64,000 nucleotides of DNA. It comes from Rhizobium indicum (lineage in GTDB: Bacteria; Pseudomonadota; Alphaproteobacteria; Rhizobiales; Rhizobiaceae). Where the stretch lies: positions 4,319,501-4,383,500 of the forward strand of contig NZ_CP054021.1 in the NCBI RefSeq assembly GCF_005862305.2, read 5' to 3'. Made by a program: the position numbers and the translations under genes. This document shows, in pieces, positions 42,682 through 61,498 of the stretch (its first letter is position 1; each line of letters begins with the position of its first letter). The notes under the pieces are model-generated. The model searched no databases and had not been told where the DNA came from. It saw nothing but the letters and a program-made list of their open reading frames with translations.

Positions 42682-43251
42682 ATGAAGCAATATCTCGATC
42701 TCTTGAATCATGTGATGGAAAAGGGCTCCGACCGGGGCGACCGCACCGGCACCGGCACGCGCTCGGTCTTCGGTTACCAGATGCGCTTCGACCTCGAACA
42801 AGGCTTCCCCGTCCTTACCACGAAGAAGCTGCATCTGCGCTCCATCATCCATGAGCTTCTCTGGTTCCTGAAGGGCGAGACGAATATCCGCTATCTCAAG
42901 GAGAACGGCGTTTCGATCTGGGACGAATGGGCCGATGCAAACGGCGATCTCGGGCCGGTCTACGGCGCCCAGTGGCGCTCCTGGCCAGCGCCCGACGGCG
43001 GCCATATCGACCAGATCGCCAATCTCGTCAAAGGCATCGTCAACAATCCGAATTCGCGCCGCCACATCGTTTCGGCCTGGAATCCGGCCGAAGTGGACGA
43101 AATGGCGCTGCCGCCCTGCCATTGCCTGTTCCAGTTCTATGTGGCTGACGGCAAGCTTTCCTGCCAGCTCTACCAGCGCTCGGCCGATATCTTCCTCGGC
43201 GTGCCGTTCTTTCCCATAATGTCGACCGGTAGCACGCAAGTAATTCATTGA
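42682..43251 (+). pseudogene. thyA: Host thymidylate synthase thyA, truncated by island insertion
   Basis: Starts normally ([19 protein letters not shown]) and runs intact through the active-site Cys ([10 protein letters not shown]) to [12 protein letters not shown], codon 176 at 43207-43209. The next residue in the family is the invariant Asn that binds dUMP (E. coli Asn177). Here the frame instead reads 13 foreign residues and stops at 43251. About 88 C-terminal residues, including the His and Tyr of the dUMP site, are missing, so the product cannot work. The missing part is not in the window. Confidence 0.93.
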
Positions 43252-43294
43252 ATTATCAGCGATAATTCTCATATCGTCAAGATACCGGTATCTT
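43250..43294. repeat. Two perfect palindromes at the island's left end
   Basis: GAATTATC-AGC-GATAATTC occupies 43250-43268 and AAGATACCGGTATCTT occupies 43279-43294. Both arms are exact. They lie 40-85 bases inside the boundary, between the thyA break and the replacement thyA, in a non-coding stretch, and may be recombinase-binding sites or operators for the downstream genes. Confidence 0.6.
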
Positions 43295-43347
43295 CGCCGA
43301 AACAGCTTAACGCGATAGTAATTAAACCACAGCGCTTGGGGCAATCC

Positions 43348-44256
43348 ATGACCCGTCATCCAGAAAGTCAGTATCTCGGTCTCCTTCAGCGTGTTCTGGA
43401 TTCCGGAGACCGCCGGATGGACCGGACCGGTGTGGGTACTGTCAGTTCGCTTGGCGCTATGATGCGATTTGATCTCTCGGAGGGTGATTTTCCAATATTC
43501 ACGACGAAGAGGGTCTATTGGAAGCTCGCGGTCAAAGAGATGATCTGGTTTCTCACCGGAGGCACGAATATACGACCGCTTCTTGCCGAGGGGGTGAGGA
43601 TATGGACTGATTGGCCGCTAGCAGCGTACCGGCGGGCTACGGGCGAAGAGATCAGTCAGCTAGATTTCGAGCAGCGTGTCCTCGGCGACGAAGGGTTCGC
43701 TATGCAGTGGGGCGATCTCGGTCCAGTATATGGGAAACAGTGGCGGGCGTGGGTGGCATCTGACGGCACGATCCATGATCAGGTGGCCACGCTCATCAAC
43801 GATCTAAAGGTCAATCCCTCAAGCAGGCGTCTCATTTTTCACGCTTGGAACGTGGGCGAACTGCCCAAAATGGCACTCGCGCCTTGTCACATGGTGTACC
43901 AATTCCACGTTTCGGGGATAGGCTCGCGCCCGCGATTGAATCTCATGGTATTCCAGCGTTCCTGTGACCTTTTCCTCGGTCTGCCCTTTAACGTGTGCCA
44001 GCAAGCCGCACTACTGCACATGATTGCGCAGCAAGTGGACATGGAAGTGGGTGAACTTGTCTGGACGGGTGGCGACGTTCACATCTATTCCAACCATTTC
44101 GAACAGGTCCGGGAGCAGCTCAGCCGTGATCCACGGCCGTTCCCCAAACTCTCAATCAGCCGCCGGGCTTCCGACATCAACGACTTCACGATCGGAGATT
44201 TCAGCGTTACCGGGTACGAGCCTCATCCGCCAATAGCCGGAGATGTCGCAGTATAG
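43348..44256 (+). CDS. thyA: Island-encoded thymidylate synthase (replacement ThyA)
   Basis: 302 residues from ATG 43348. Complete: the loop RRMDRTGVGTVSSLGA, the catalytic Cys in MALAPCHMVYQFHV, the dUMP site QRSCDLFLGLPFN with its Asn, and GGDVHIYSNHFEQV with the His and Tyr. It differs from the host copy throughout and carries the longer insert (WPLAAYRRATGEE...) of the 300-plus residue ThyA group. It makes dTMP from dUMP with methylenetetrahydrofolate. Sitting between the broken host gene and the gin genes, it most likely restores the lost function. Confidence 0.92.
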   Translation: MTRHPESQYLGLLQRVLDSGDRRMDRTGVGTVSSLGAMMRFDLSEGDFPIFTTKRVYWKLAVKEMIWFLTGGTNIRPLLAEGVRIWTDWPLAAYRRATGEEISQLDFEQRVLGDEGFAMQWGDLGPVYGKQWRAWVASDGTIHDQVATLINDLKVNPSSRRLIFHAWNVGELPKMALAPCHMVYQFHVSGIGSRPRLNLMVFQRSCDLFLGLPFNVCQQAALLHMIAQQVDMEVGELVWTGGDVHIYSNHFEQVREQLSRDPRPFPKLSISRRASDINDFTIGDFSVTGYEPHPPIAGDVAV

Positions 44257-44532
44257 CTTTATGTTTTACCTTGAAACGCGAGCACGGGATGCTGGCGAAT
44301 GGGCTGGCAATCAAAGACGTCATCCAAGTCTTTAATTTCCGTGCTTTGCTAAAAAAGGAAGACTTCAACCATGCTATTCGGTATTGACTTAATAGAAGAC
44401 TCCGAGCGTTAGTCTTTCTGCGGTTAGTCCTGCGTCGAATTTTTCATGTTGCGGATTTTATATTGGCCAGGATTCCTGTGTAACGAATAATTAACGAATT
44501 TGACTTCTGATTTCCGGCATCGGTGTTGTTCG

Positions 44533-47055
44533 ATGGCGGCGGATATGAAGTTGCTTGCGAAATCGTTATTCAAAAAGGAGGGCCGCACTCGCCGGGCTGG
44601 TAGCGGCGATCTCACCCATCTGGCGTCAAGGGGGCCGGAGGCGGTCCTAGACGATGTCAGTCAGGGCGCATGGGGGCGAGAGAGGATTCGTCAATTTTTG
44701 GACGGCGCTCCGTCGTTCAACTTGGTGCCTTACACTGACCACGGATTCGTCAATCAGACCGAGCTCGCTCGACAGCTTGGCTTGTCTCAAGCTTGTGTGT
44801 CGAAAAACCAGGACCTCATTCGCGAATTTGAAGACAGGACAGCGGACGGATATGCCAACGACAGGCTGGCCAAGCTGCGTGCTTTTATCGATCAGGGCTT
44901 TCGCGATGGGACTTTGCACTATTCCACCCGCAAGTTCACGCGCGAACTATACGGCACAGCCAATCTAAAGGCCCTGCGCAAGGAGCTGGGTATACCCAGG
45001 CTCCATCAAGAGGCATTGGACCTTATCGCTTTGTTCGAGAATGAGAACATTACTCGTCTTCGAGCTGATCCCCTTTGCGCCGAAATCGAAGGACGGTTCT
45101 TTGCATTTAGCGGTCTCTGCGATCTCGGATATCCTCTGCCTTACGTTGAAAAAATGGCCGAGTCTTTCCGAAAATCATATTCGGAAGTGAAGGGACCGGA
45201 GGCCGGTCGATACCACCTCGCTCTTATGAAGCTGTTCACCTGGCTGAAGCATCAGGACAAGCTAGTAACTGCTGTAGCCAACAACATTCACATCAGAGGA
45301 GCTGTTAAGGACGTCGATTGGCTATATGTGCTGATGCAGTATAGAGACAGTGTCGATGAGGAGAGCCAACCTCGATTAGTTTCGGCGGTTAACAATCTCA
45401 GCCGCAGTCTCGCTGTCACCGGTCTCGTGCCATGGCTCGCTCGTGGCATCCCTGATGAGCGACGCAAGGCACCCACGGGCACCATCAAGTCTTTCGCAGA
45501 AGTTGCTACGACGCTGGTCGAAGGCCACGAGTCTACAGTCGACGGCTTTATGGAGTTCATCGAGAATTTCACCAATTCCGACAATCTCTCGTTGTTTGCG
45601 GAAGCCGATCGAGTTGATTCCAAGAATTTCTACGCGGCCCTGAAGCAGGACTTCCTTATCAACGGCAAAGAAGGTCCCCTTGAAGTGGTGGCTGCCACCC
45701 GCACTCTGATTGAAAAGAGGCAGGGTCTTTTCAACGAGCGGTTCAACACGCTGATCGCCGAGGGGGTGCAGACGCTGGAAGAGGGAGACCGCCTCGCGTC
45801 TCTTGGGGAGGACCCGGACCTTTATTGGGACCGTCTTTGTGACGGTGAATTGAATCAGGGCGAAAGATCACGCCTGATCAGAGAGTTTTTCCCGAACCCA
45901 GATACAGAAGACCGCACAGCCTTGAAGAACATTCTTAGGCTTGTCCGGGACAAGTTCAAAAGGAAAGCTCCGCTCGAAGGCGAGGAGGCAAGTTGGTTTT
46001 TCAAGAAGCGCTATCAGGAAATTGCACCATCCAGCGAGATTCAGGCCTACCTGCTTCCGACCAATGCCCTGATGTTGGCTTGCGCGTCGATATATTTCCA
46101 GGGGTCGGGCGTCAACCTTCCGGTTGGGCGCGGGTTACTGGAAAAATGCTACCAACCGTCTAATGACAAAAACTACCGCCGGGTGGTGGGCTTCAAGGCG
46201 AAGGCAAAAGGGAAGCCTATCATATACTATTTCGAGGTGAGGTCTGATGAATGCCTTGCTTTGGAAGTCGCACTGAAGTGGGGCAAGTATCTTAGGGATG
46301 TTGCTCCCCCAGAACATAAAGGCCTGATGTTTTTGCAGAAGGTTGGGCCACGGATACAACCGATCAATCAGTATGGGCTTCGAACGTTCTTCGAACAGCA
46401 GCGCAAGACGATCGAAGGGCTTGAGCAGGTTGCCTTAACTCCGCAGATGTGGAGACCTACGTTGCTTCTCCTTGCCGCGATCGACAGCGGCGGAAAGCTC
46501 GGCGTTGCCCTTGCGCTGGCTCAACATACCGAAGGCGTCAGCGGACACTATTATGACCGACTGCCGCTACGGCTAATGCACGAAGTCCGGCTCCGCTATT
46601 TCAAAGAGCTTCTGGAAGCGGCTGTAGTACACGCGGTCCCGGGTTCCCCTGCTTACATTGGGTTAGACCCCAAAACGATTGACCGGAGGCTCGCCGAAGC
46701 GATTGACGTCGGGATCGGCATAGCTTGCGCTGATCCTTATGAAAAGTCCGCCGGCCAGTCCATTTGCGATACGCTCGACTGCTTCCGATGCAAAAAAATG
46801 ATGATCTCGATCGACGCTGAATCCCTATCATGGTTGATCATCTGGCGGAGTTCCCTCGAGCAGGCCGAGGGCGATTGGGTGAGAGACCACCCGGACCGCT
46901 GGGAAGAAGAGTTCCTTCCTTTCTTATCCCTCGTCGAGGTGGTCGAAGAGCTCATGCAGCCCGCGATGTACCTGCCGATCTGGCTAGAGGCGGAAGATAT
47001 CGCCGGTCAAAGGTTAGAGGACCCTAATTTTCAAGCCTATCAGCCTTGGAGTTGA
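44533..47055 (+). CDS. ginA: GInt recombination protein GinA (divergent tyrosine recombinase)
   Basis: 840 residues from ATG 44533; TTG 44500 and ATG 44545 are alternatives. A helix-turn-helix (NQTELARQLGLSQACVSKN, about residues 76-94) is followed by a long helical middle. The C-terminal part resembles a recombinase catalytic domain: MWRPTLLLLAAIDSGG, then ALAQHTEGVSGHYYDRL with a His and Tyr in the expected order. I do not find a clear box I Arg (the place reads YFQGSGVNLPVG). It ends with a CDTLDCFRCKKM cluster. Transcribed with ginB after one base. Confidence 0.75.
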   Translation: MAADMKLLAKSLFKKEGRTRRAGSGDLTHLASRGPEAVLDDVSQGAWGRERIRQFLDGAPSFNLVPYTDHGFVNQTELARQLGLSQACVSKNQDLIREFEDRTADGYANDRLAKLRAFIDQGFRDGTLHYSTRKFTRELYGTANLKALRKELGIPRLHQEALDLIALFENENITRLRADPLCAEIEGRFFAFSGLCDLGYPLPYVEKMAESFRKSYSEVKGPEAGRYHLALMKLFTWLKHQDKLVTAVANNIHIRGAVKDVDWLYVLMQYRDSVDEESQPRLVSAVNNLSRSLAVTGLVPWLARGIPDERRKAPTGTIKSFAEVATTLVEGHESTVDGFMEFIENFTNSDNLSLFAEADRVDSKNFYAALKQDFLINGKEGPLEVVAATRTLIEKRQGLFNERFNTLIAEGVQTLEEGDRLASLGEDPDLYWDRLCDGELNQGERSRLIREFFPNPDTEDRTALKNILRLVRDKFKRKAPLEGEEASWFFKKRYQEIAPSSEIQAYLLPTNALMLACASIYFQGSGVNLPVGRGLLEKCYQPSNDKNYRRVVGFKAKAKGKPIIYYFEVRSDECLALEVALKWGKYLRDVAPPEHKGLMFLQKVGPRIQPINQYGLRTFFEQQRKTIEGLEQVALTPQMWRPTLLLLAAIDSGGKLGVALALAQHTEGVSGHYYDRLPLRLMHEVRLRYFKELLEAAVVHAVPGSPAYIGLDPKTIDRRLAEAIDVGIGIACADPYEKSAGQSICDTLDCFRCKKMMISIDAESLSWLIIWRSSLEQAEGDWVRDHPDRWEEEFLPFLSLVEVVEELMQPAMYLPIWLEAEDIAGQRLEDPNFQAYQPWS

Positions 47056-47056
47056 G

Positions 47057-49078
47057 ATGAGAAGTCGAGAAAAACTTTTGATCGAACCAGTACGTCAGAG
47101 CTTACTTGCAGCTTCCTCCGAGCGCTCTGCAAAGTGGATGAGGGGTAGCAGCTACGGCGCTTCAAAATGGACGGTTTACGATGACTATGGACCGGGCTGT
47201 GCGACCCTAGACTTCGAGTTTAGAATGCCTGATGGCCGCTGTCTTATGCAGAGCCCAAATTGGCTTTCAGCCGCGCGAGAGTTCACCTTCTGGATTCGAG
47301 CGGGGCCTTATGTCAAGTTGAAGGATGCCGTGACCCATCAACGCTGGCACCGCATAGGCCTTAATACCGTTCATGGTCTCGCTCTCAGAGGGTTTAAATC
47401 CCTCGAACAGCTCACGGAAGACAACCTGGAGGATTACTTCGAGGAATCTGTTGTGATGGGCGTTGATGGCATTCTCAACGTCGACGGCCGGACTAATGCT
47501 CTATTGCTGCCGTTTCACACCATCGAGGATGTGCCAGAAGAGTTCCTGATTAGGAAACCGGAACTAAAGTTGAACGCAGTAGCGGTTGCGAAAGCATGCA
47601 ACCTTCCTGCCTCGGTCGTAAGTTTGAAGGCCTTTCATTCCAAGCTACGCGTACATCTCGAACGCTTGACACCTCGGCGCTTGTCGCGGGAGGCCGAGGC
47701 CGAGTCCGACGGGATGGAAGGGAGTGTGCTTTCCGCCGGCTCCTTGTACGATTTCATATCGTACTTCGAAGCGCAACACGCGCTGCGAGATGTAATGAAC
47801 TGTCCTACCATCAGGTTCAATCCTTTCATGGAGGAAACGCCGGCCGAGATCGCAAAGCGTCTCGGCCGAGCTGGCAGGAAAACACCGATTGCCCCTCACC
47901 ACTTGATGATCCGATTATTTGAGGGGTGCACAAAGATTCTGGTGAACGACTGGGACGATATTCGAGCGGAATACATTCGAGCAGCCCGAGCCTATCTCAA
48001 TTCGACTGTCAGTTGGTCGGCAGTGTCGCAGGCTCGCTCGAAGGTCCTTCACGTAGCGAACGCGTGCTTTGTTTTAATCAGCGGCTTTACCGCACGTCGT
48101 CCCGGCGAGGTCCGGCTGTTAGAGCGTGATTGTTTGGCTGGCAACAACGAAAAGGGGTGGTGGCTCAAGGTCACCATAATTAAGAACCACGATCACACGA
48201 AAACTTGGGTCACAATACCCAACATTGTGGCACGTGCGGTCAGCATTCTAATAGAAATCGCTGACTTCCACGCAGATGAAGCACGAACAGACAAACTTTT
48301 TGTCATTTACGCCCCCTCAAAAAAACGGTTCGTAGAGCTGACGGTATGTAGGGGGATCACAGAGTTTGCCCGCAAACTCGATGCCGTTTCGTACGTGGAA
48401 GACGGCGTAAACAAGGAATGGCTTTGGTATCCGCGCCAGTTCCGCCGCTTCTTCGCGGTTGTCTTCTTTCATAGGTTCAACGGTGGGATGGAAACCCTCT
48501 GCCACGAGTTGCGGCATTGGAGCGTTGATCAGGCGCGGGGATACGCGACGCTTGACACGGAGGCGGCTCGTTACTGGCTCAAGACGGAACAGGAATTCAA
48601 GCGTCACGTTGCCACTACAATTGCGAACGACGAAGAAGAGTTAACGGGGCCGCTAGCTAATCGTTACCGGAAGCTGTCGGAGCGCTTGAAGCGGATGTTA
48701 CGAGGCAAAATAGTCCCGGTGGACCAAACAGCTGCAGAGATGATTGTCCGCCATATGGGCCGCGAGGCAAATGTGTTCACTGTTAACGCGTGGAGCACAT
48801 GCGGGTGCCCAAATTCACAGAAAGGCACCGACAAAGCAAATTGCCGCAAGGGTGGAAAAGGGCAAGGCTTAGGCGCTAGTCTAAAGGACGCGGGGACGTC
48901 GGTCTGTGGTGACTGTCCTTGGAGCATGCAGAATGCAGCGCAGCGGGAGTATGTCGCGCGGGACGCCGCCAAGACAAGGGAAATCCTTGAGAACGATTGC
49001 CGCCCTCAGAATATTTTTAAGATGCTGCAGGAGCGTCGCTACTTGCGTCTGGTCGAGTTTGTGGAGGACGCAGCATGA
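47057..49078 (+). CDS. ginB: GInt tyrosine recombinase GinB
   Basis: 673 residues, start one base after ginA with GGAG before it. Catalytic landmarks: SGFTARRPGEVRLLE (box I Arg, about residue 345), WWLKVTIIKNHDHTK (beta-hairpin Lys) and CHELRHWS (His 483, Arg 486, His 487). The tyrosine is uncertain (Tyr 496 or Tyr 506), because the spacing is shorter than in Xer. The C-terminus has a Cys cluster (STCGCPNSQKG...NCRKGG...VCGDCPW) that could bind zinc. Overlaps ginC by four bases. Confidence 0.8.
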   Translation: MRSREKLLIEPVRQSLLAASSERSAKWMRGSSYGASKWTVYDDYGPGCATLDFEFRMPDGRCLMQSPNWLSAAREFTFWIRAGPYVKLKDAVTHQRWHRIGLNTVHGLALRGFKSLEQLTEDNLEDYFEESVVMGVDGILNVDGRTNALLLPFHTIEDVPEEFLIRKPELKLNAVAVAKACNLPASVVSLKAFHSKLRVHLERLTPRRLSREAEAESDGMEGSVLSAGSLYDFISYFEAQHALRDVMNCPTIRFNPFMEETPAEIAKRLGRAGRKTPIAPHHLMIRLFEGCTKILVNDWDDIRAEYIRAARAYLNSTVSWSAVSQARSKVLHVANACFVLISGFTARRPGEVRLLERDCLAGNNEKGWWLKVTIIKNHDHTKTWVTIPNIVARAVSILIEIADFHADEARTDKLFVIYAPSKKRFVELTVCRGITEFARKLDAVSYVEDGVNKEWLWYPRQFRRFFAVVFFHRFNGGMETLCHELRHWSVDQARGYATLDTEAARYWLKTEQEFKRHVATTIANDEEELTGPLANRYRKLSERLKRMLRGKIVPVDQTAAEMIVRHMGREANVFTVNAWSTCGCPNSQKGTDKANCRKGGKGQGLGASLKDAGTSVCGDCPWSMQNAAQREYVARDAAKTREILENDCRPQNIFKMLQERRYLRLVEFVEDAA

Positions 49079-49641
49079 TCAAACGGACGAGGCGAATTCG
49101 AACAGCTGAGAGGAAGAAGAGACGTGTGTTCGAAGGCTCGATGGAACAGCGACTACGTTCTAGGATTGATGTTCTCGAGCAATTGAAGCCCGAAGATATC
49201 ACTCCCGAACTTTGGGAGAAAATGGGAAGCCTCGAGGCCGTGAGAAACTGGGAATCTCAGGAATATGGCATTCAGCCGATCGGTTCGAAAAAGAAGTACA
49301 CAACAATAGATGCGGATTTTGGTGGAATGGTCGTTCTGTTGCAGCGTGAAATCAACCGTCTTCGACCGCCTCCGGCGAGTGTCACTCCCGGTCCCAGAAA
49401 GCCGCTCGCGGTACAGCTCGTCGAAAGTAAACTAGCACGGGAAGTGCTCGCCACGCGTCTGGGCGTTGCCAAAAAGGACCGACGTCGTCTGTCGCAAGAA
49501 TTGGGAAAGAAAACGAAAACCGCACGAGCGCAAGAAAAACTGATTGAACACTACGAGCAAAAGATCGATGCGCTTAGCCAAGAAAACAGGAACTTGAAAA
49601 CCAGGCTCCTGGCTTTCGAAGGTTTCAAGGCTGTCCAATGA
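49075..49641 (+). CDS. ginC: GInt accessory protein GinC (basic, coiled coil)
   Basis: 188 residues. The N-terminus is strongly basic (MIKRTRRIRTAERKKRR), the middle is unclear, and residues 120-183 form a long amphipathic helix (LGVAKKDRRRLSQEL, then QEKLIEHYEQKIDALSQENR) that is probably a coiled coil. It overlaps ginB and ginD by four bases each (ATGA), so all are translationally coupled. In characterised GInts the small third protein is required for integration and excision; a DNA-bending or bridging role is inference. Confidence 0.75.
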   Translation: MIKRTRRIRTAERKKRRVFEGSMEQRLRSRIDVLEQLKPEDITPELWEKMGSLEAVRNWESQEYGIQPIGSKKKYTTIDADFGGMVVLLQREINRLRPPPASVTPGPRKPLAVQLVESKLAREVLATRLGVAKKDRRRLSQELGKKTKTARAQEKLIEHYEQKIDALSQENRNLKTRLLAFEGFKAVQ

Positions 49642-51302
49642 GTGTTTCGAACGCATCACTCAGCGCAACCTATAAACAACGACTGAAAGAACTCCGTCAG
49701 GAGCACGAGACAACGGCACCCATTGATCGTGGAAGGGTAATTCGCAAGTGGATAACCAAAGAGATAGCGTGCCATCCTTCTTTCTTGAGTACGTCCACCG
49801 TGAAGCCGTTTCTTGAAGAGTGGGATTCCGTCCGAGGGGGGAAGACGGCGGCTGACAAAACCACCTCGGAAATACCGGCAGCGAAACCGGTGCATCGAGA
49901 TGCCCAGTTGGACGAGCTCACCATCGAACGCATTCGGCGCGAGCAAGCCCGGAAGTTTCGCGACGCGATTGAGTGGGGAGAAGCCCGCGTGGGTCGTAAG
50001 ACCCGAAAGTGTCCCGAAGTCACTCTCAATGACGTCTTTCAAGAAGAGATTTACAGCTGGCAATGCGTTCGGGCAAGAATCGAACTACCAGACTCTCTCT
50101 GGGACAGTGCAAAGATCATGTTGCAGTTTTTTCGGTGGCTTCGCAAAAAGAGGCTTCACTGGGTCGACGTGGACGACGAGATTATTCTCGAGTTCCGGGA
50201 GGAGTTGCGAGCAAACGGCGACACAAAGGCCCACGTCAATAAAGTCATGGGCGTCATCCATTCCTTTTATCGGCACCAGGAACTTTCCGGTCGATTGAGA
50301 TACAGAGTTCAGGTGTACGAACTGAATGCGCTACCCGAGGAATTGCGCGATTACCAATTCCCTATCACCAGTGAACTTCGAACGCGTGTGTCAAAACGTG
50401 GCGCTAAAACGAGCGGCTGGGCATCGCCTTGGTTGCTCAGAGGTAAGGAAAGCTCGTACGGGAAAAAGGCAACGCCAACTGACGAGGTTATGGAGGCCGT
50501 TCATAAGCTCCTCCGTAATCAAAAACATGGACTAAGAAACTCTGCGATGTTGTCGGCTTACGAGGACAGCGGCGGAAGACGTAAAGAGGTTCAATCGATA
50601 AACGTCGGCCAATTGCCTTCTGTGCAACAGCTGCACACACTTTTGACAACCAACGACGAGTGGGTGATTGAGGTTACCCGCAAAGGACAGGACGAGCAGA
50701 CGGGCGAAACCGCGCCATTGCGTTTCAGGCCCGCTACTATGATGCGATTGATGAGTTATGTTGAGGGTCCGCGCGCGGCGATTGTTCGGGGAACTGGCTC
50801 TGCGACGCAACAACTTTTCCTGAAAGACAACGGTGAGACCTTGAGGCTCGACAGCGTTACCAAGATTGTGACGAAGGTGCTTCGCGAGGCGGGATTTCCG
50901 AACAGCACCCTCCATAAGGTGAGAAGCCGCTTCATCAAAAAGAAAATCAAGACGCGTTTGGACACCGCTAGAGCGCACGCGGCAAAGATTGGTCCGGCTT
51001 CCAATTGGACGGAAACAATCCTTTCCGGTTCTGCCATCGACATGAACCACAGCACCACTGAATCTCTTCAACCGTACATGTACGACATTTTCGCAGAGGA
51101 GACTGCTAATGGGGGGCCGGATACCCTAGACAATATTGAGCACAAGATACTGGAAGCCAAGCGAACACTTGCCGATATCGAGACGCGTCTTGCGGGTCCC
51201 TTGGCGTTCGACCAGATACTCCGGAGAGTCGAACTATCACCGCGCCGAGATTTCATTCTCAAGCAGCTTCAGGTCCAAGCGGAGGAGCTTCTAAGGGCAT
51301 AG
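49638..51302 (+). CDS. ginD: GInt tyrosine recombinase GinD
   Basis: 554 residues, start overlapping ginC (ATGA). An N-terminal core-binding region (about residues 110-215, with SLWDSAKIMLQFFRWLRKK) precedes the catalytic domain: YEDSGGRRKEVQSIN (box I Arg, about residue 312), WVIEVTRKGQDEQ (Lys), LHKVRSRF (His-x-x-Arg, about 426-429) and MNHSTTESLQPYMYD (second His about 471, Tyr about 480). The full Arg-Lys-His-Arg-His-Tyr set can be proposed, so this is the most canonical recombinase of the three. It ends in a helical tail. Confidence 0.82.
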   Translation: MSVSNASLSATYKQRLKELRQEHETTAPIDRGRVIRKWITKEIACHPSFLSTSTVKPFLEEWDSVRGGKTAADKTTSEIPAAKPVHRDAQLDELTIERIRREQARKFRDAIEWGEARVGRKTRKCPEVTLNDVFQEEIYSWQCVRARIELPDSLWDSAKIMLQFFRWLRKKRLHWVDVDDEIILEFREELRANGDTKAHVNKVMGVIHSFYRHQELSGRLRYRVQVYELNALPEELRDYQFPITSELRTRVSKRGAKTSGWASPWLLRGKESSYGKKATPTDEVMEAVHKLLRNQKHGLRNSAMLSAYEDSGGRRKEVQSINVGQLPSVQQLHTLLTTNDEWVIEVTRKGQDEQTGETAPLRFRPATMMRLMSYVEGPRAAIVRGTGSATQQLFLKDNGETLRLDSVTKIVTKVLREAGFPNSTLHKVRSRFIKKKIKTRLDTARAHAAKIGPASNWTETILSGSAIDMNHSTTESLQPYMYDIFAEETANGGPDTLDNIEHKILEAKRTLADIETRLAGPLAFDQILRRVELSPRRDFILKQLQVQAEELLRA

Positions 51303-51430
51303 GTGGGGTTGGTCGCAGAGGTTGAGGCAACTCTGTAAAGGTTGCCCGAGATTGGCAGGCGGCCAGTTGTGCGCCTTTAAGGCCTAGACGTGCAAGTACC
51401 GTATCGCCTTCTAGCGGCATTACCTTCCAC

Positions 51431-51697
51431 CTAACCCTTCAGACGCACCCACTCATGGAAGTCGCATCCTCGATCGGGGCATACCACGCTAGGCGATACA
51501 AACCCGTCCTGCGACACGACGTGGTTGCGAAGCGTCAGCGTGTGTCCGTTGGGGCATGTGAGGGATGCCTTGAACAGGCGCGCCGTGGACGGATGACAGG
51601 GTGACCATCGTGACCGCTTGCCGTTTCGGTGGGAATAGGGAGATGGAGCTTGCTTTGAGAGCCGGGCTACGGGACGTCTCAGTAACGCGATCATCAT
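51431..51697 (-). CDS. Small Cys/His protein coupled to an ImmA-like remnant
   Basis: 88 residues. After a basic N-terminal 45, the sequence reads LTCPNGHTLTLRNHVV, then SVVCPDRGCDFHEWVRLKG. The CPNGH and CPDRGC pairs look like a zinc ribbon. Its ATG overlaps the stop of the upstream ImmA-like frame by three bases, so it was translated together with it. I do not recognise the family; a role in the same regulatory pair is likely. Confidence 0.6.
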   Translation of the reverse strand: MMIALLRRPVARLSKQAPSPYSHRNGKRSRWSPCHPSTARLFKASLTCPNGHTLTLRNHVVSQDGFVSPSVVCPDRGCDFHEWVRLKG

Positions 51698-52029
51698 AGC
51701 CGATGCAAGTTCATGAGCGTCGCGATCCTGATCGTCATCGCCTGGACGCTGACATGGTACGTCCTCGCCAGGTCCTTGATCATGGCTTCATCTTCAACAT
51801 CGACGAACCGGTCGCGCAAATCCTGCTGAAGAAACTGCTGGGGCATTAAGAGGCTTGCCGCGAACGCGTTGGCCTCAACCTCTTCCACGTCAACCGCCGC
51901 AGACTGCAGCAGCCAAGAATGCAGATACGCAAAAAATCCTGTGTGTATTCCCACCCGAGCAAGGTGAAAACTCGCGAGATGGTAGCACTTGCAACTTGGC
52001 CTCAGTACAACCGAGCTGAGGAGTCGCAC
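51694..52029 (-). pseudogene. ImmA/IrrE family metallopeptidase remnant, 5' truncated
   Basis: The last 70 residues match the C-terminal part of ImmA/IrrE peptidases: EEVEANAFAASLLMPQQF carries the conserved EANAFA third motif, followed by MIKDLARTYHVSVQAMTIR, a helix-turn-helix-like end. The HExxH zinc motif, normally just upstream, is absent in every frame. The frame begins one base from the divergent NTPase start, so the 5' half seems to have been lost when that gene arrived. Confidence 0.65.
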
Positions 52030-54333
52030 ATGAAATCGTTTTTTGCTTACCCGTCATCTCAATCGGAAGTCGTCAAGGTCATACGGTCAGCAAAAGACCA
52101 GCTTGCCCGAAGCGGACTGCAATTCGATATCCAATTGTGGGAAGAAAACGAAATTTGCGGGCGTCCGCTGACTTCGCCGATTTTCGAGGGAATTAAAGAC
52201 GCCGACTTTCTGATCGCCGATATAACCTCTCTGAACTTCAACGTTACCTTCGAGATCGGGTATGCGATCGGTTTGGGAAAACGGGTCTATCTCACCAGGA
52301 ACTCGAATTTCCGCAGAACCGGCGACCTGATCGACAAGATTGGCATCTTCGACACGCTGGGCTTCCAATCCTACGCGGACCAGGATGATCTCAAGAAGCT
52401 GATCGCCGGATTTGATGGCAGCTACCCCATTCCGTTGCGAACGGTCCTCAACGTCCGATCTCCCGTTTACCTTCTGAGAACACCCCAATCGAATTCGTCC
52501 GAGCTTGCGATTATCAGCCGGGTCAAAAAGGCCAGGCTTGGTTTCAGGGCATATATGCCTTCGGATGATCCGCGATTGTCCGCGTCGCAAGCGATAGACG
52601 ACGTCTCGGCGTGCTTCGGCGCGATCATAACGCTTCTGCCGCTCGATTTCGCGGATGCCGAAGTCCACAATATTAGGGCCGCCTTCGTCAGCGGACTTGC
52701 CCTCGGCATGGGGAAGCTTACGACCATCCTGCAGCCGAGAACGGGTCCGGCCCCGCTCGACGTTCGCGACATCGTCAAAACTGTCGCCTCCGACGATCTG
52801 ATCACCGAAATCATTGGGGAGTTCGCACTGGACGTCACGGAGCGGCTCCAGGCCGACGACCCGCTGCCTCTTCCAAAGGGCAATTTCCTGGCCGAGATGT
52901 CCATCGGCGACCCAGTGGCAGAGAACGAATTCCAGACCCTCGGGAGCTACTATCTGCGGACCGATCAGTTTCAACGCGCGTCTCGCGGCGAGGTCAACCT
53001 AGTCGTTGGCCGCAAGGGTGCCGGCAAGACGGCACTGTTTTCCCAGCTTCGTAATGCGAAGCGTAACAATGTTCAGAATATCGTCGTTGATCTCAAGCCT
53101 GAAGGCTACCAGCTGATCCGCCTCAAAGAAGACGTTCTCGATTATCTGGCCGACGGTGCGCGAATGCACCTGATCACAGCGCTCTTCGAATACGTGTTTT
53201 ATCTGGAAATTTGCTACAAACTCCTCGAGAAGGATCAGGATCGACACCTCCGTGACCCCCGGTTGTACGAGCTCTACAATAATCTCCAGGAAGTCTACAA
53301 AAGCGGCGCGGCGGGCGAGGGCGACTTCTCGGAGCGCCTTCAGGGTCTTTCCCGCGACTTGGCAGCATCGTTTCAGAAGCGCTTTGGGACCACCTCGGAT
53401 CAGCGGCTAACTGCAGCGGAGGTGACGGAGCTGATCCATAAACACAACATACGCGACATCCGGAAAGCCATGTCGGACTATCTGAGCGTCAAGGAAAGCG
53501 TGTGGGTGCTCTTCGACAACCTCGACAAGGGATGGTCGTCACACGGATTGACCGATGACGACATCCTTATCCTGCGAGGCTTGATTGACGCCGCGCGGAA
53601 AATCCAGCGGCAGATGCAATCGGAGAGGCACGACTTCAATTGCGTAGTGTTTGTTCGCAACGATGTTTACCAGCTCCTTGTCGAGGCGTCCTCAGATTAC
53701 GGCAAGGAGAGCCGCGCAACTTTGGACTGGACGGATTCGGACTTGCTGCGCGAGATGTTGCGCAAACGGCTGATCTATAACTCGCTTCCTGATTCAACGC
53801 CGTTCGAACGGGTCTGGGCGCAAATCTGCATTTCGCACTACCAAGGCGAAGAAACCAGCCAGTTCATCATCGATCGATCTTTGATGCGTCCACGTAATCT
53901 GATTAAGCTGCTGAGCCACTGCCGCGGCTTTGCGGTCGGCATGGGGCGGGCGCGGATCGAAGAGGTCGATTTTGAGAAGGGACTCAAGGCCTATTCACTG
54001 GACCTCATCACCGAGGCCGATCAGGAACTCACCGACATTATCGGTCGTGACACCAACCTAATCTACCATTTCATCGGCGAGGGCGAGACCTTCACGGCCA
54101 CACATCTCAAGGAGATTTTGGTGGGCGGAGGAATCAGCCAGGAGCAGCTGGAGAGCGTCACGAACTTCATGCTTTACTACGGATTCCTCGGAGTGAAAAT
54201 CGGAGCCAATACCCCCAAGTTCATCTTCGACGTGGCCTACGACATGAAGCTGATCGGCGTTCTGATCATGAAGGCAAAGGAAGACATGGTCTACGTGCTC
54301 AACCCGGCCTTCCATGCGGGGTTGAATTTCTAA
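52030..54333 (+). CDS. Tandem TIR/deoxyribosyltransferase-like domain fused to P-loop NTPase; candidate defence protein
   Basis: 767 residues from ATG 52030, with GAGGAG nine bases upstream. Residues 1-95 look like a TIR/nucleoside deoxyribosyltransferase fold (SFFAYPSSQSEV, then DADFLIADITSLNFNVTFEIG). A weaker second copy covers about 150-240 (IDDVSACFGAIITLLPLDFADAEVHNIRAAFV). From 290 an NTPase follows: Walker A GRKGAGKT (about 326), Walker B VWVLFDNLDKG (about 491), and a helical C-terminus. Sensor-effector fusions of this sort are common in anti-phage immunity, where the TIR-like part degrades NAD or makes signals. Function here is inference. Confidence 0.7.
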   Translation: MKSFFAYPSSQSEVVKVIRSAKDQLARSGLQFDIQLWEENEICGRPLTSPIFEGIKDADFLIADITSLNFNVTFEIGYAIGLGKRVYLTRNSNFRRTGDLIDKIGIFDTLGFQSYADQDDLKKLIAGFDGSYPIPLRTVLNVRSPVYLLRTPQSNSSELAIISRVKKARLGFRAYMPSDDPRLSASQAIDDVSACFGAIITLLPLDFADAEVHNIRAAFVSGLALGMGKLTTILQPRTGPAPLDVRDIVKTVASDDLITEIIGEFALDVTERLQADDPLPLPKGNFLAEMSIGDPVAENEFQTLGSYYLRTDQFQRASRGEVNLVVGRKGAGKTALFSQLRNAKRNNVQNIVVDLKPEGYQLIRLKEDVLDYLADGARMHLITALFEYVFYLEICYKLLEKDQDRHLRDPRLYELYNNLQEVYKSGAAGEGDFSERLQGLSRDLAASFQKRFGTTSDQRLTAAEVTELIHKHNIRDIRKAMSDYLSVKESVWVLFDNLDKGWSSHGLTDDDILILRGLIDAARKIQRQMQSERHDFNCVVFVRNDVYQLLVEASSDYGKESRATLDWTDSDLLREMLRKRLIYNSLPDSTPFERVWAQICISHYQGEETSQFIIDRSLMRPRNLIKLLSHCRGFAVGMGRARIEEVDFEKGLKAYSLDLITEADQELTDIIGRDTNLIYHFIGEGETFTATHLKEILVGGGISQEQLESVTNFMLYYGFLGVKIGANTPKFIFDVAYDMKLIGVLIMKAKEDMVYVLNPAFHAGLNF

Positions 54334-54750
54334 GGACGACGCGGGGCAGGCGTAGAGGGCGCGTCGCGCCCCAATCGAACTCCCCGGGATGTTTGTCGGT
54401 TTCTGTCATCGGGCGAAGTGCGCGGCATCTCCGGTAAGTCGATCCGGAACTCCAACCAAGCGGTTATGAGCCGCAGTCACCAACTAAGCCGAGGCTCCGG
54501 ACCAACCGCCATATAGCGGACGGCCGCCGTCGACCCTTCCGCCCGATACCAATCGCTTTCGAGCAGGCAATTGGGTTCGTCCTCTCGGACGCCGGGGGGG
54601 CGTTGGTCTCGGACTTTGCCATGTGGAAGTAGATGGCCTTCCGCTCTGCAGCGTCAACGGCTACGCCAGGGCGGTAGGACTTATGCGCTACGGCTTCGCG
54701 TTTCGATCTTGCGTTGGCGTTGCAGGATCTGGGGGCCAAAGCTTTGGCAG
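54334..54750. other. Intergenic region with a doubtful short frame on the minus strand
   Basis: About 415 bases between the NTPase gene and the gene downstream of ku. A 91-residue minus-strand frame (54464-54739) contains KSYRPGVAVDAAERKAIYFH, which is protein-like, but its end is low-complexity and a run of seven C/G could mark a frameshift. It may be a gene remnant. No RNA gene or terminator is clear. Confidence 0.3.
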
Positions 54751-55014
54751 CTAATGCCGGGTGTCCAGAAGTGGTTCGTCGTCGTCAAAGTTTCCATTGC
54801 TGGCGGCATCGTACGGGTTGATGCTCCGGCCGCCGCCACGCGTGCCATATGCCGTCAACTGAACCATGACCTCCTTCGCCCGCTCAATGGCCTCGTCTTC
54901 GCTTGCAGCGTGACCGTCCGCGACCTTGATCGAAACCTCTTCCCCGTCGTCGCCAACGAAATCTATCCGCCAGCCCGTTGTCTCGTGCGCAACCTTGGTT
55001 TCTAGCAAGTGCAT
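54751..55014 (-). CDS. Small acidic protein downstream of ku (unknown function)
   Basis: 87 residues from ATG 55014 (MHLLETKVAHETTGWRIDFV), four bases after the upstream Ku gene stops, with GGAAGG as ribosome site. The composition is acidic with a GGGRSINPYD tail. No family recognised. Its position as third gene of the ku operon suggests co-expression under stress. Confidence 0.65.
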   Translation of the reverse strand: MHLLETKVAHETTGWRIDFVGDDGEEVSIKVADGHAASEDEAIERAKEVMVQLTAYGTRGGGRSINPYDAASNGNFDDDEPLLDTRH

Positions 55015-55018
55015 GTGA

Positions 55019-55831
55019 CTACCCGGCCTTCCTGTCTTTGAGATCGGCCTCGACGCTCTTCCGGAGCGCATCCATGATGTTGAACACATTCGACTTCGGA
55101 GCGGCTTCGGCAGCTTTCCCCTTCGCCGTTTTTTTCGGTTTCAACGCCTTTTTCTTCTCGTCGATGAGCCGCAGCAGGCTGGTCTGAATGGGATCGCTGA
55201 CCATGTCCGGCGACCAGCGCGCGGTCTTCTGCTTGATGAGCTTCTGGACGAGCGGAATGAGATCGGGATCGGCCTGCTCGTCGATTTCCTCGAAGTAATT
55301 TTCCTCCGGCCGAACCTCGTCGCCGAAACGCAGCGTCCAGAGCACGATGCCTTCGCCGCGCGGCTCGAGGACAACGGCACGCTCTCGGCGGCCCATCACA
55401 AGCTTCGACACGCCGAAAACCTTGTCGGCCTTCATGGCATCCCTGATCACCGCAAATGCCTCGTTGCCGACGGCGTCGTCCGGCATCAGGTAATGCGGCT
55501 TCTCAAGGTAGATCCACTCGATGCTGTCGGCCGGGACGAACTTGTCGATGTCGATCGTCTTCACCGTGTCGAGCGCAACGGCATCCAGATCTTCCTCGGT
55601 GAGGATAACGTAGTCGTTCTCCCCGCGAGCGTAGCCCTTGGCTTCGTTCTCGTCCTTGACGGGCTTGCCCGTGACGGAATCGATGTACCGGGAGACGACG
55701 CGGTTGCCCGTCTCCTTGTTGAGTGTATGGAAGCGAACCTTCTCGCTTTCGCTTGTGGCCGGGGTCATAGCAACGGGGCAGGTGACCAGGGAGAGTTTGA
55801 GATAGCCTTTCCAGTAATATTTCGGAGCCAT
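55019..55831 (-). CDS. Ku protein, second copy of a tandem pair
   Basis: 270 residues with the bacterial Ku core: YYWKGYLKLSLVTCPVAM at the N-terminus, RFHTLNKETGNRVV, DDYVILTEEDL-type segment (NDYVILTEEDLDAV), the EKPHYLMPDD loop, and MVSDPIQTSLLRLIDEKKKA. A basic tail follows. Ku binds DNA ends as a ring and recruits LigD for end joining. It begins 11 bases after the first ku, so one operon. Two non-identical Ku chains of this type form heterodimers in Sinorhizobium (Ku3/Ku4), which may apply here. No ligD is in the window. Confidence 0.9.
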   Translation of the reverse strand: MAPKYYWKGYLKLSLVTCPVAMTPATSESEKVRFHTLNKETGNRVVSRYIDSVTGKPVKDENEAKGYARGENDYVILTEEDLDAVALDTVKTIDIDKFVPADSIEWIYLEKPHYLMPDDAVGNEAFAVIRDAMKADKVFGVSKLVMGRRERAVVLEPRGEGIVLWTLRFGDEVRPEENYFEEIDEQADPDLIPLVQKLIKQKTARWSPDMVSDPIQTSLLRLIDEKKKALKPKKTAKGKAAEAAPKSNVFNIMDALRKSVEADLKDRKAG

Positions 55832-55842
55832 GACCTATCTCC

Positions 55843-56751
55843 CTAGCTGGCTTTGCGCTGCGGGGCAGCCTTTGAAGCGGCGGACTTCGCTGCCGCCCCG
55901 CGCGCGGCGCGCTGCCTCCCAGTGCCAGTGTTAGCGTTGGCGGCAGTGCGTTTCGGGTTGTCCGCAGCGGCCTTCAACATGCCTGCGCTCTCGCGGAGCG
56001 CGGCCAGCAGATCGTTGGGCTTCGAGACCTGCACCTTCTTCGGCTTTGGAAGCGACTTGCCTTCCAGCTTCGCCTTCACCAGGTCCGCAAGGGCGGCTTC
56101 GTAGCGGTCATCGAAGGTCGCCGGATCGAACTCGCCCTTCTTGGTGCTGATGATGTGCTTGGCGAGATCGAGCATCTCGCCCTCGATCTTGAGCTTGGGC
56201 ATTTCCTCGAAAGCCTTTTCGGAGGAACGAACCTCGTAATCGTAGTTGAGCGTGCTGGCGATCAGGCCCTTGCCGTGCGGCCGTATCAGCACCGTACGCA
56301 TTCGACGGAACAGGACGGTGCGGGCGATGGCCGCGACCATCGACTTCTTCATCGCATCGCGGAGAGCCGCGAACGCGTCTCCGCCCATCTTGTCGGGCGT
56401 GAGGTAGTAGGGCTTGTCGAAGTAGACGTCGTCGACGTCGGAGCAGGGGATGAACGCCTCGATCTCGAGCGTCTTGTTGCTCTCAGGGATCGCGGCGGAA
56501 ACTTCCTCAGGATCGATGATGATGTACTGGCCGTTATCGATCTCGAAGCCCTTGGTCTGGGCTTCCTTTGGCACCGGATCCTCGGTCTCGCTGTCTATGA
56601 AGATGCGGTTGACCCGATTGCCCGTGGCCTTGTTGATGGTGTTGAAGGTGATGCGGTCGCTAGTCGAGGCTGCCGTGTAGAGAGCGACGCCGCAGCTTAC
56701 CTCACCGAACTTCAGAAAGCCTTTCCACTGTGCACGCTGTCCTGACGGCAT
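55843..56751 (-). CDS. Ku protein, first copy of a tandem pair
   Basis: 302 residues. The core is present (AQWKGFLKFGEVSCGVALY, TFNTINKATGNRVNR, YFDKPYYLTPDKMGGDAF, RHxLI-like RTVLIRPHGKGLIAST), followed by a long Lys/Ala-rich tail (from about 245) that probably binds DNA. It is the first gene of a ku-ku-small protein operon on the minus strand, led by an RpoE2-type promoter at 56785-56809. The start has GGAG upstream. Stress-controlled end joining is inferred from the promoter and from the rhizobial precedent. Confidence 0.9.
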   Translation of the reverse strand: MPSGQRAQWKGFLKFGEVSCGVALYTAASTSDRITFNTINKATGNRVNRIFIDSETEDPVPKEAQTKGFEIDNGQYIIIDPEEVSAAIPESNKTLEIEAFIPCSDVDDVYFDKPYYLTPDKMGGDAFAALRDAMKKSMVAAIARTVLFRRMRTVLIRPHGKGLIASTLNYDYEVRSSEKAFEEMPKLKIEGEMLDLAKHIISTKKGEFDPATFDDRYEAALADLVKAKLEGKSLPKPKKVQVSKPNDLLAALRESAGMLKAAADNPKRTAANANTGTGRQRAARGAAAKSAASKAAPQRKAS

Positions 56752-56784
56752 GACAAATTCTCCGAATCACTAATACGCGACTCA

Positions 56785-56809
56785 AAGACGTGTCAGGGTG
56801 ATTCGTTCC
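56785..56809 (-). promoter_or_regulatory. EcfG/RpoE2-type general stress promoter of the ku operon
   Basis: On the minus strand GGAAC (56809-56805) is followed by 18 bases and TT, an exact match to the Sinorhizobium RpoE2 consensus GGAAC-N18/19-TT. The expected start is about 25 bases before the first ku ATG. A dyad, GATTCGTT (56800) and AACGAATC (56817-56824), overlaps the -35 element and could be an operator. Confidence 0.65.
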
Positions 56810-56812
56810 GAC

Positions 56813-57007
56813 TCAAAACGAATCATTTTTCAATACTTTACGGAATTTCTCTCCCAAATTGATTCCGCCGTCTCCACTGGTCGAATTGCGCCCGGCAGTG
56901 GTGGAAAGCGGTGGCGATTGCTTAGTTCGAGAGCCGCAGCAACCTGCTTCCTCCAGCACCATGCTTAGGAATTCCGCAGCCGCTTCAAGCGCAGCATCAT
57001 GATCCAC
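56813..57007 (-). CDS. Short ORF upstream of ku, possible small protein
   Basis: 64 residues from GTG 57007 (VDHDAALEAAAEFLSMVLEEAG), with GGGAGA five bases upstream. The N-terminal half is an amphipathic helix with two Cys at its end; the rest is Ser/Gly-rich. It ends inside the dyad that overlaps the ku promoter. Protein-like composition is the only support; no family recognised. Confidence 0.4.
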   Translation of the reverse strand: MDHDAALEAAAEFLSMVLEEAGCCGSRTKQSPPLSTTAGRNSTSGDGGINLGEKFRKVLKNDSF

Positions 57008-57016
57008 TATCTCCCG

Positions 57017-57041
57017 GGAACCACCGGAATCGTTGTGAGTT
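57017..57041 (+). promoter_or_regulatory. EcfG/RpoE2-type general stress promoter of the DUF3606 gene
   Basis: GGAAC (57017-57021), 18 bases, then TT (57040-57041), ending 34 bases before the ATG at 57076. Same spacing as the ku promoter, opposite direction. Small stress genes of this family are typical members of the rhizobial general stress regulon. Confidence 0.65.
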
Positions 57042-57075
57042 TCTGCTGCGGACGTTCATTCCGAGGAGAAGCCCG

Positions 57076-57258
57076 ATGGCACAGACACCGACATCCCGCG
57101 GCCGCGCACAGGATCGAGCCCGCGTGGCCGGCGGCCAGGATCACGAGGTCAAGTACGAAGCAAAGAAGGAGGGCGTCTCGAAGGATGCCGTCAAGAAGGC
57201 CGTGAAGAGCGCTGGAAACTCACGGAAGAAGGTCGAGGCCGAGATTGGTCGCCGTTAG
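57076..57258 (+). CDS. DUF3606 family small stress-type protein
   Basis: 60 residues, basic (MAQTPTSRGRAQDRARVAGG), with VSKDAVKKAVKSAGNSRKKVE, the DUF3606 motif. The start is supported by GAGGAGAAG. It has its own RpoE2-type promoter at 57017-57041. Function of the family is not known. Confidence 0.8.
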   Translation: MAQTPTSRGRAQDRARVAGGQDHEVKYEAKKEGVSKDAVKKAVKSAGNSRKKVEAEIGRR

Positions 57259-57406
57259 GCGGCCGAGCGGCGTTGCCCTGTCCACGGACGAGGCAGGTCC
57301 CCGTGGATGTCCTGTCTTTCCTAGTCTGGATCATGGCGACGCCGCTGTGTCGTAACGAAGCAGTCATAGCCACGCAGGCCTGCCGCCTCCATGTCTGGGG
57401 TAACGC

Positions 57407-57643
57407 ATGTCCAAGTGCATACAGGAAGACCACCTGCTAATGTCGAAGGCGGTCCGTGAATGGTATCGGTACTACGAGGTGGAGTGGGACGATCAAGCGT
57501 CCTCGTTTTTGTGTGATGCCGCCATCGAACTCTACAACGAGGGCTGTCGCTCGGTAGAGGAGATGGCGACCGTTCTGATCGGCACTTACGTCGGGCTGGC
57601 CGCTACGCGCGTAAACGCGCCGTCTTCGAGCTCAGTGCATTGA
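57407..57643 (+). CDS. Small protein of unknown function
   Basis: 78 residues, or 67 if the second ATG (57440) is used. The sequence REWYRYYEVEWDDQASSFLCD, then AIELYNEGCRSVEEMATVLIGTYVG is protein-like and predicts three helices. No family recognised. It is convergent with the frameshifted gene at 57653-58487 by about ten bases. Confidence 0.55.
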   Translation: MSKCIQEDHLLMSKAVREWYRYYEVEWDDQASSFLCDAAIELYNEGCRSVEEMATVLIGTYVGLAATRVNAPSSSSVH

Positions 57644-57652
57644 CCGGCCAAT

Positions 57653-58487
57653 TCAGATCGGGCTGAACTCGACGAATTCGCACTGCATGTGATCCGACCG
57701 CGTCTTCATCCAGTCGTAGACATATTCCCCCTGGTCGATTGCCGAGCAGCTCATTCCAGGCAACACGGTACCGGATGGATTGGTCGCCGCTTTCCGAGCG
57801 ATGTACCGCCAGAACATGCCCGAGGTTTCGGACTGGTCCTTCTCGATACGAGAGAGTTGGACGACACCGCATGGACCTTCGGGATGATACGACCCAAGCT
57901 CCACCATTCGTGAAGTCGGAGATCCAGACGAACTCCTGCGTGAACGGGTTCGAGCTGACCTGGCAGGTCCGAAGATCCTTCGCGTGGTCGGCCCTGGTGA
58001 TCTTCAGGAAGTTCTCCTCGGTCGGATGATCGCACATGCCTGCGAGAGCGCGGAACGTGTCGAGCATACTGGGGTTCGCCTTCGCGTCCTCTCGCAGACG
58101 GACCATGCCTTCCTTAAACTTCGCGGCATCCGTCGCGATTCCAGGATTGCGGGCGAGGGCGTCATCAATGGAAATCTGACCGGTGGCCATGCCGAGCCAC
58201 GCGCCCATCATGTTGCATTCCTTGGGATCGGAGAATTCCTTCACAGCACCCGGATAGTTCTTGCGAGCTTCGTCGAGCTTCTTTTCCAGATCGGCTGCCT
58301 TCGCCTTCTTGCGAACAGCCGTCTGAAGGAACTCGCACCGGAGGCGCTGCTGGCCCGCCTGAAGCTTGCAGCTATACGTCAGCGAGGAATCCTCCTGCTG
58401 GTTATAGAGCATGCCATTGGTGGGATAGTCTGTGGCGACGGCATCGAACGCCACCATTCCAACTGCAAGCATTATCAGCGTTTTCAT
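57653..58487 (-). pseudogene. Exported protein gene with a frameshift
   Basis: Starts MKTLIMLAVGMVAFDAVATD, a signal peptide, and continues with a Cys-containing mature part (SLTYSCKLQAGQQRLRCEFL, SDPKECNMMGAWLG, RTCQVSSNPFTQEFVWISDF). Near 57905 the sequence breaks: the natural continuation (ELGSYHPEGPCGVVQLSRIE, later MQCEFVEFSPI) lies in another frame and ends at 57653, while the original frame reads Arg-rich junk to 57603. Either a real mutation or a sequencing error. Family not recognised. Confidence 0.7.
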
Positions 58488-58705
58488 CGATTTTCCCCCG
58501 TGCTCAACTTTGCTCCGGCAGGAAGGGGAATTCAAGCCTCAGGACACGCCGCATCTTGTGACCTACTAAGGTTCAACGGATCCTTGCCACGACTCGTTCT
58601 GGTGTCTAGCTTTCGGTGCTCGCGCTGTCGCGCCGTTGCATAGGCCGCTTCGCTGCCGCAACATTGTCTCTGGGCATGCTCTTCCTGAACTGACGAGGAC
58701 TCGAC

Positions 58706-59238: not shown

Positions 59239-59400
59239 ACCAACAGCGATCGTCCTTGATCGAGTTCAGTGCGACCCAGGCTAGTAGCTCCCCGGGTCAT
59301 GGGGCCGGCCGTTGCGATGGACATGGGGTTCTTGCGACTGATCGTTTGTCCGAAGAGAGCACGGCGAAGATGTCCTTGACGCGAGACCGGACGTAGAGCG

Positions 59401-61486: not shown

Positions 61487-61498
61487 GGCAGCCAATCT

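Follow-up and report, generated by a model that had tools for sequence, protein, structure and literature searches.

Essential genes are usually viewed as poor targets for mobile DNA and as slow to be exchanged. What we regard, by analogy, as the closest precedent for the locus described here is the 65-kb genomic island of Pseudomonas putida KT2440, which lies in tmk and carries its own dNMPK, the function of which has been proved (PMC10653934); the available part of that paper also describes tmk-type islands with tyrosine-type recombinases in other genera and a stand-alone dNMPK replacing tmk (PMC10653934). The GInts, according to the accessible portion of their description, are site-specific elements with a four-gene module at one end coding for three recombinase-like proteins and one small protein, a large and varied cargo, imperfect direct repeats of 10-17 nt at their ends and a proposed 6-nt staggered exchange; their authors consider inactivation of the target gene by the insertion as probably not full (PMC5385486). 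In the strand-biased circularizing integrative elements (SEs), as far as the source at hand goes, the native 6 bp are found at attL and the imported 6 bp at attR, and the same source describes RIT elements as having three tyrosine recombinases of 315-410 aa in a row (PMC10214605). Finally, Tn552-II, an element of the Tn554 type, carries a homologue (tgl) of its target gene that, in the available text, its authors suggest may provide rescue (PMC12486829).

The window analysed here, i.e., the whole stretch of 64,000 nucleotides, covers C1:4319501-4383500 of the 7.53-Mb genome of Rhizobium indicum (6 contigs, 100% complete) and includes the left part of an island in the host thyA gene (Table 1). 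Loss of thyA is lethal without thymidine. We propose, with a probability of roughly 85%, that this island is a site-specific integrative element dedicated to thyA and that its predicted rescue gene has been repeatedly domesticated, a strategy that may be termed "break-and-replace".

Table 1. Features at the left end of the island, in positions of the window
Feature	Position	Strand	Basis or remark
Host thyA 5' part, codons 1-176	42682..43209	+	PF00303 match 1-178 of 266, reading frame
Left 6-bp core CCGTTC	43204..43209	.	Right core CCATTC, beyond window
Left terminal inverted repeat TTTCCCATAATG	43210..43221	.	11/12 bases match right end
Truncated host frame tail: 13 foreign codons and stop	43210..43251	+	Reading frame
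Island portion within window	43210..64000	.	Continues to C1:4457892, 95,183 bp in all
Island thyA, complete, 302 aa from ATG	43348..44256	+	PF00303 2-266 of 266; only full thyA in genome
R1, large tyrosine-recombinase-like, ~850 aa	44500..47055	+	Start codon uncertain
R2, large tyrosine-recombinase-like, 673 aa	47057..49078	+	Invariant residues; PHROG integrase E 5.9e-4
R3, small, 188 aa, coiled-coil-like C-terminal part	49075..49641	+	Weak matches only
R4, XerC/XerD-like tyrosine recombinase, 554 aa	49638..51302	+	XerD model E 1.5e-6, below its cut-off

The break itself is as the initial annotation had described it: read from 42682, the host ThyA is intact to codon 176 and continues for 13 foreign residues up to the stop at 43249-43251, and the first residue that it lacks is the invariant Asn of VPFN, the junction falling between GVPF and N. 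The complete ThyA that had been noted inside the island is likewise present, its ATG at 43348 being 96 bases past that stop and its frame extending to 44256. The DNA past 64000, where the rest of thyA and folA had been expected, holds both: the 3' remainder of the host gene (88 codons) restarts at C1:4457893, 95,183 bp from the 5' part, and folA is next to it. The GC content of the island is 57.1%, as against 61.2% and 61.6% in the flanks at hand. At its right end an open frame of the island enters the thyA 3' remnant in frame, with a 152-aa chimera as a possible product (L007:14701-15159).

The initial annotation had named two findings that would count against compensation by the island copy, namely a backup synthase elsewhere and an assembly artefact. 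With respect to the former, PF00303 matches three places genome-wide, the host 5' part, the complete copy that comes directly after it and the host 3' remnant (C1:4457881-4458156), and this profile search of the whole genome recovered no other thyA; a search of the genome with PF02511, a profile that was positive in 6 of 14 control genomes, had no match to thyX. Neither backup is therefore recognizable by these profiles. An artefact is very unlikely because both thyA pieces are on one contig, of 5.03 Mb, and because the same break with an own ThyA recurs in nine other genomes.

The island ThyA is a diverged version of the enzyme, sharing 44% identity with the host part across 208 alignment columns, and keeps all nine active-site residues that were checked (R21, E58, W80, C146, R166, D169, N177, H207 and Y209 in E. 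coli numbering), as do 56 of 56 long ThyAs compared. Among the matches listed, its nearest named relatives are from R. rosettiformans (93% identity) and R. indigoferae (82%), and named-Rhizobium ThyAs in general reach 72-93%. The stretch of the island thyA equivalent to the target departs from the consensus at 10 of 23 specified bases, seven short copies being 0-2 off; the count for long copies covers the two of G000 (this genome) and G090, the motif search having missed most long ThyAs. At the protein level, GVPFNIASY is present in 73 of 77 short-ThyA loci, a set in which some genomes are counted twice, but was seen neither in the 53 long ThyAs nor in the 117 motifs that could be read out of 120 homologues. 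A special recoding of the target in the island ThyA through selection was considered and is not claimed: long ThyAs differ at 37 of 151 conserved columns, the mismatch at the target being part of this general divergence. A sigma-70-type scan, which covers that type alone, detected no promoter-like or terminator-like site on the + strand from the host thyA start to the island ATG; read-through that begins at the host promoter would fit this. The 1.3-Mb plasmid pRlX5 of R. leguminosarum TP16 (NZ_CP140867.1; L157:9001-10571) also codes for a long ThyA (54% identical), accompanied by a folA-like stretch, with no match to R1-R4 within the 19 kb around it.

The island sits at the Pro-Phe codons of the VPFN segment, with one 6-bp core on each side. 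Its left junction reads GGCGTG-CCGTTC-TTTCCCATAATG and its right junction CATTCTGGGAAA-CCATTC-AACATCGC, where host sequence resumes with AACATCGC at the Asn codon; island-free relatives have an uninterrupted locus that reads GGCGTG-CCNTTC-AACATC or close to it. The initial notion of a very conserved target site is borne out. The inverted ends are TTTCCC...GGGAAA here and TTTTCC...GGAAAA in most relatives. On comparing both ends of ten elements (G000, G035, G058, G076, G114, G146, G932, G1108, G381 and G348), the first 12 bases agreed at 8-12 positions; given that the left ends were located by a pattern that fixes bases 1-6, positions 7-12 provide the fair test, and here the mean agreement was 4.2 of 6 within an element versus 2.5 of 6 between elements. 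The right core codes for Pro-Phe in nine of the ten and the left core in five. The simplest reading of these sequences would take the right core as native and the left one as brought by the element; G348 is reversed, with a left core that codes for Pro-Phe and a right core that does not, and the R. indicum element leaves the origin of the cores ambiguous, since it has the same left core as its nearest relatives. A direct repeat at the island ends was also looked for and rejected, as the left and right regions compared share no stretch of 11 nt or more; inverted ends fit instead, although the two 6-bp cores, 5/6 alike, might be read as a short imperfect direct repeat.

The island thyA is followed by a four-gene module for three large tyrosine-recombinase-like proteins and one small protein. 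Across four elements we found invariant R536, K558, R644, H668 and Y676 in R1 (numbered from base 44524), R347/R348, K376, R463/R464, H487 and Y496 in R2, and R314, K349, H426, R429, H471 and Y480 in R4 (i.e., R, K, HxxR, H, Y). R4 matches XerH in the PDB (E 0.0035). For R1, no family was matched at E up to 10; it aligns with R2 in catalytic register, though far below significance (probability 0.8%, E 0.067). R1-R3 recovered nothing in Pfam, NCBIfam or PADLOC at E <= 0.001, and up to E 10 the NCBIfam matches of the module were Xer-type models (R4), one diol dehydratase model and VPA1267 (R3, E 0.61). NCBIfam holds models for the Gamma-mobile-trio proteins, none of which was matched by the module up to E 10. 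Protein searches were limited to the best 8,000 scored candidates each and genome searches to the best candidates per genome, such that misses are possible; within these bounds R2 has at least 26 relatives at E <= 1e-5 (best 8,000 of about 5.8 billion proteins scored), weaker matches falling in other large recombinase-like ORFs. R2 was without a match in phage records and without a confirmed one in viral contigs, and no R4 was found in plasmids. A pattern scan for R2 in named genome contigs yielded 24 stretches, none of which was confirmed. Separately, the locus of a weak R2 relative (G460; L062:6445-11399) displays a row of ORFs of 671 aa, 819 aa (integrase-like) and 159 aa (coiled-coil-like), perhaps another type of three-recombinase module.

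The same arrangement, in which thyA is split by DNA that has inverted ends, a 6-bp core and a ThyA of its own, is found in ten genomes from three families. In the genus sample, all 148 genomes have a PF00303 match, the best of which, by E-value, is to a short ThyA in 94 and a long ThyA in 54; all 54 of the latter were read as sequence and 47 of the 94 former were fetched with their flanks. Six of the 54 (G000, G035, G058, G076, G114 and G146) are broken at the same point with a long ThyA alongside. In the family sample (297 genomes, 289 with a PF00303 match) the short ThyA is the best match in most, about 33 genomes, G000 included, having a long-type best match as judged by E-value only; two of the sample, G932 and G1108, share the break with an own copy, and G1033 presents a decayed form, in which codons 142-176 persist as a worn 5' piece and the 3' piece is divided in two. 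G381 and G348 show it in further families of the order. In G348 (L061, L153) the interrupted native thyA is itself of the long type, and hence the element is not confined to the short thyA. Weak PF00303 matches of 68-103 bits (G010, G027, G066, G111, G094, G059, G087, G062, G1165) were taken by score as another protein, and second matches in G113 and G128 were left out.

Where both thyA pieces are on a shared contig, they are from about 6 kb (G035) to 129 kb (G1108) apart. R1-R4 directly follow ThyA in eight of the ten split genomes; that of G076 is at the opposite (right) end of the island, some 78 kb away from ThyA, and none was detected in G035. Measured from the left end, the ATG of the island ThyA is reached after 138 bp here and after 129-193 bp across all six split genomes from the genus. 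Strong matches to R2 (E < 1e-90) were obtained in 5 of 148 genus, 3 of 397 order and 1 of 385 class genomes, with G000 in all three sets, and every one of the seven genomes with such a match has a split thyA. The island ThyAs of the five other split genus genomes are 63.5-65.2% identical to that of R. indicum, and the R1-R4 of three of them 18-34% identical to its module, so that the recurrence is not one recent spread.

Beyond the split loci, another 48 of the 148 genus genomes have an island-type ThyA as their sole full-length copy. This long thyA adjoins sspB in 47 of them (G110 being at a contig end), with folA downstream in 39. PF00303 matches once in 42 of these genomes, and G012, G059, G062, G073, G087 and G094 each give an additional match that is partial or weak. 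Two of the 48 retain pieces of the broken native gene, and one of the two also a right end and a recombinase fragment. In G012, within ~3.5 kb, there follow one another codons 1-27, the long ThyA, a fragment of R1 (hmmsearch E 1.9e-15), a right end GGAAAA-CCGTGC-AACATC, the 3' codons and folA. G073 has the thyA start, a deletion and a left junction with TTTTCC; its 3' piece, in two frames, and folA are on another contig, and therefore its island may still exist. The other loci are more bare: in 46 of the 48, including a clade of 33, no native thyA remnant was detected at E <= 0.01, and for these the route of take-over is only inferred. The R1 fragment of G012 was the sole recombinase trace after ThyA in the 48, G077 having one weak tblastn match (E 0.012); in most sole-copy loci no island was recognized. 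The prediction that the island would be hard to lose calls for refinement: the islands do shrink, to ~6 kb between the pieces in G035 and ~3 kb in G012, while an intact island-type ThyA is found in each sole-copy locus.

These sole-copy genomes bear on an alternative, namely that the long ThyA is an older native gene in part of the genus, from which the element acquired it there, and that the sole-copy genomes are not island-derived. The clade of 33 lacking a native remnant would fit this, as would the nesting of short-ThyA species in the long part of the flank tree, the trees being unrooted by other genera. Against it, the 48 sole-copy sequences form seven clades in the ThyA tree (33, 8, 3 and four singles) that are interleaved with island copies, albeit with several weak deep nodes; G012 has pieces of the old thyA, a right end and an R1 fragment around its long ThyA, and G073 has the left junction; and the prevalence of the short ThyA as best match in the family sample points the same way. 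We consider this alternative unlikely. The flank tree, built from five flanking proteins of 99 genomes (47 short, 47 long and 5 split; G058 and G110 are absent), requires 13 state changes under parsimony as against a mean of 32.9 and a minimum of 24 in 200 shuffles, and each of the five split genomes in it is a single tip beside a short-ThyA species. We also observed short-ThyA species nested among long-ThyA species around G046, G096, G111, G039 and G085; thus, the change may not be one-way, with reversals or other exchange, and a return of the short thyA in these is possible.

That the island ThyA is instead ordinary cargo near an end, the target having been picked for its conservation and dTMP being obtained from reassembled ThyA pieces or by salvage, appears more improbable still. 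It could draw on G076 and G035, where ThyA is not beside a recombinase module; yet, all ten split genomes contain an own ThyA, at the distance from the left end noted above in the six from the genus, the host pieces in R. indicum are 95 kb apart with the 5' piece stopping before the active-site Asn, and the own ThyA is what survives decay.

A prophage or phage satellite with a phage-derived ThyA can be set aside as highly improbable: although phages often carry a ThyA (matched in 3,839 of 50,697 records), an origin of the island gene from them is unsupported in that all phage matches are below 60% identity, as against the higher values in named Rhizobium among the matches listed, R2 is absent from phage records and unconfirmed in viral contigs, and no phage structural protein was found among the 16 of 86 cargo ORFs scanned with Pfam. 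As to the cargo itself, the first gene past the module (window 51919-54333) codes for an 804-aa P-loop ATPase of the Sll1717 family (NCBIfam E 1.2e-91) that also matches anti-phage models weakly. Further along (55019-56751 and 62435-64000, on into L004) are two Ku genes, an ImuB-like polymerase and a DNA polymerase III alpha (DnaE-like), which by their sequence are a predicted DNA-repair/mutagenesis set.

Returning to the dedicated thyA element that we favor, we advance the following mechanism. R1-R4 would insert the element into thyA at its Pro-Phe codons, the exchange being staggered by 6 bp, a step suggested by the ends and the active-site residues and modeled on the mechanisms in the available accounts of GInts, SEs and Tn554 (PMC5385486, PMC10214605, PMC12486829). 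The island ThyA, read from the host thyA promoter ahead of it, would then restore dTMP synthesis, as the want of any other recognizable enzyme and the recurrence of the arrangement suggest; on this proposal, integration into an essential gene becomes survivable and loss of the island thyA is punished. Devoid of the target sequence, the island copy would itself not be hit. Over time the island would erode with its thyA being retained, such that the imported gene takes the native locus, a succession suggested by comparing the stages that different species present. That the island copy compensates for the break, as the initial annotation had put forward by inference, is made more likely than that reading could show by the recurrence in ten genomes and the part-decayed forms, as far as sequences can tell. 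We hold it as rather probable, if with less assurance than the element itself, that ThyA was made part of the core unit of this element family as an obligate rescue, and that insertions and their decay rewrote the native thyA in about a third of the genus and here and there in the family. In outline such a break-and-replace device resembles the engineered cleave-and-rescue drive.

Against the usual view of essential genes, we thus see one recombinase module at the same thyA codons in several genera and three families, with a replacement aboard, and related species that span the range from a fresh split to a full take-over. If the proposal is true, it provides a concrete route for the in-place replacement of essential genes by foreign versions; it would also give the removal of such an island a concealed and potentially lethal cost, and would make thyA unreliable as a phylogenetic marker in rhizobia.

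How far is this element foreshadowed by the described systems? As in the KT2440 island, a gene of dTMP metabolism is split, here into two thyA pieces on one contig, and the activity is supplied by the island, in our case as predicted from sequence. Unlike it, per the available description, where the target is tmk and the replacement a kinase related to that of phage T4, the present island targets thyA and brings a diverged member of the enzyme family to which the broken gene itself belongs. In the KT2440 system, the four genes described as flanking code for a TetR-type regulator, two recombinases and an unknown protein, the recombinases being compared by description alone; here no TetR-type ORF was found between ThyA and R4, ThyA being followed by R1-R4. 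Taken together by analogy, the two islands suggest that break-and-replace might be a more general strategy, acting at two steps of dTMP supply. With the GInts, as accessibly described, the element shares its site specificity, three recombinase-like proteins and one small protein at one end and a large varied cargo; in contrast, the small protein GinD is last in ginABCD (GinA-D being compared by description), whereas the order here is R1, R2, small R3 and Xer-like R4, with inverted repeats around a 6-bp core and thyA within the unit. Tyrosine recombinases, target specificity and a 6-bp core of differing origin on the two sides are shared with SE/Tn554 elements as given in the text at hand, but their rule of a native left and an imported right core does not hold here, where the right core looks native in most elements and, in five of ten, the left core cannot be the native Pro-Phe codons while the right is; further, their Tfp is described as being without the catalytic motif, unlike the three large proteins here, all of which have R, K, R, H, Y (PMC10214605). 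Tn552-II differs as a 9-kb staphylococcal element with tnpABC, for which the available text describes no essential metabolic gene and no native-gene replacement, and the ~850, 673 and 554 aa of our recombinases, with their 188-aa companion, are outside the size range described for RIT. In the portion of the open-licence literature covered, there is no report of an island in thyA carrying its own thyA. Hence, the idea of breaking a gene and supplying its function was already known; new here are the target, the recombinase module, as set apart by descriptions, and a fuller series of stages.
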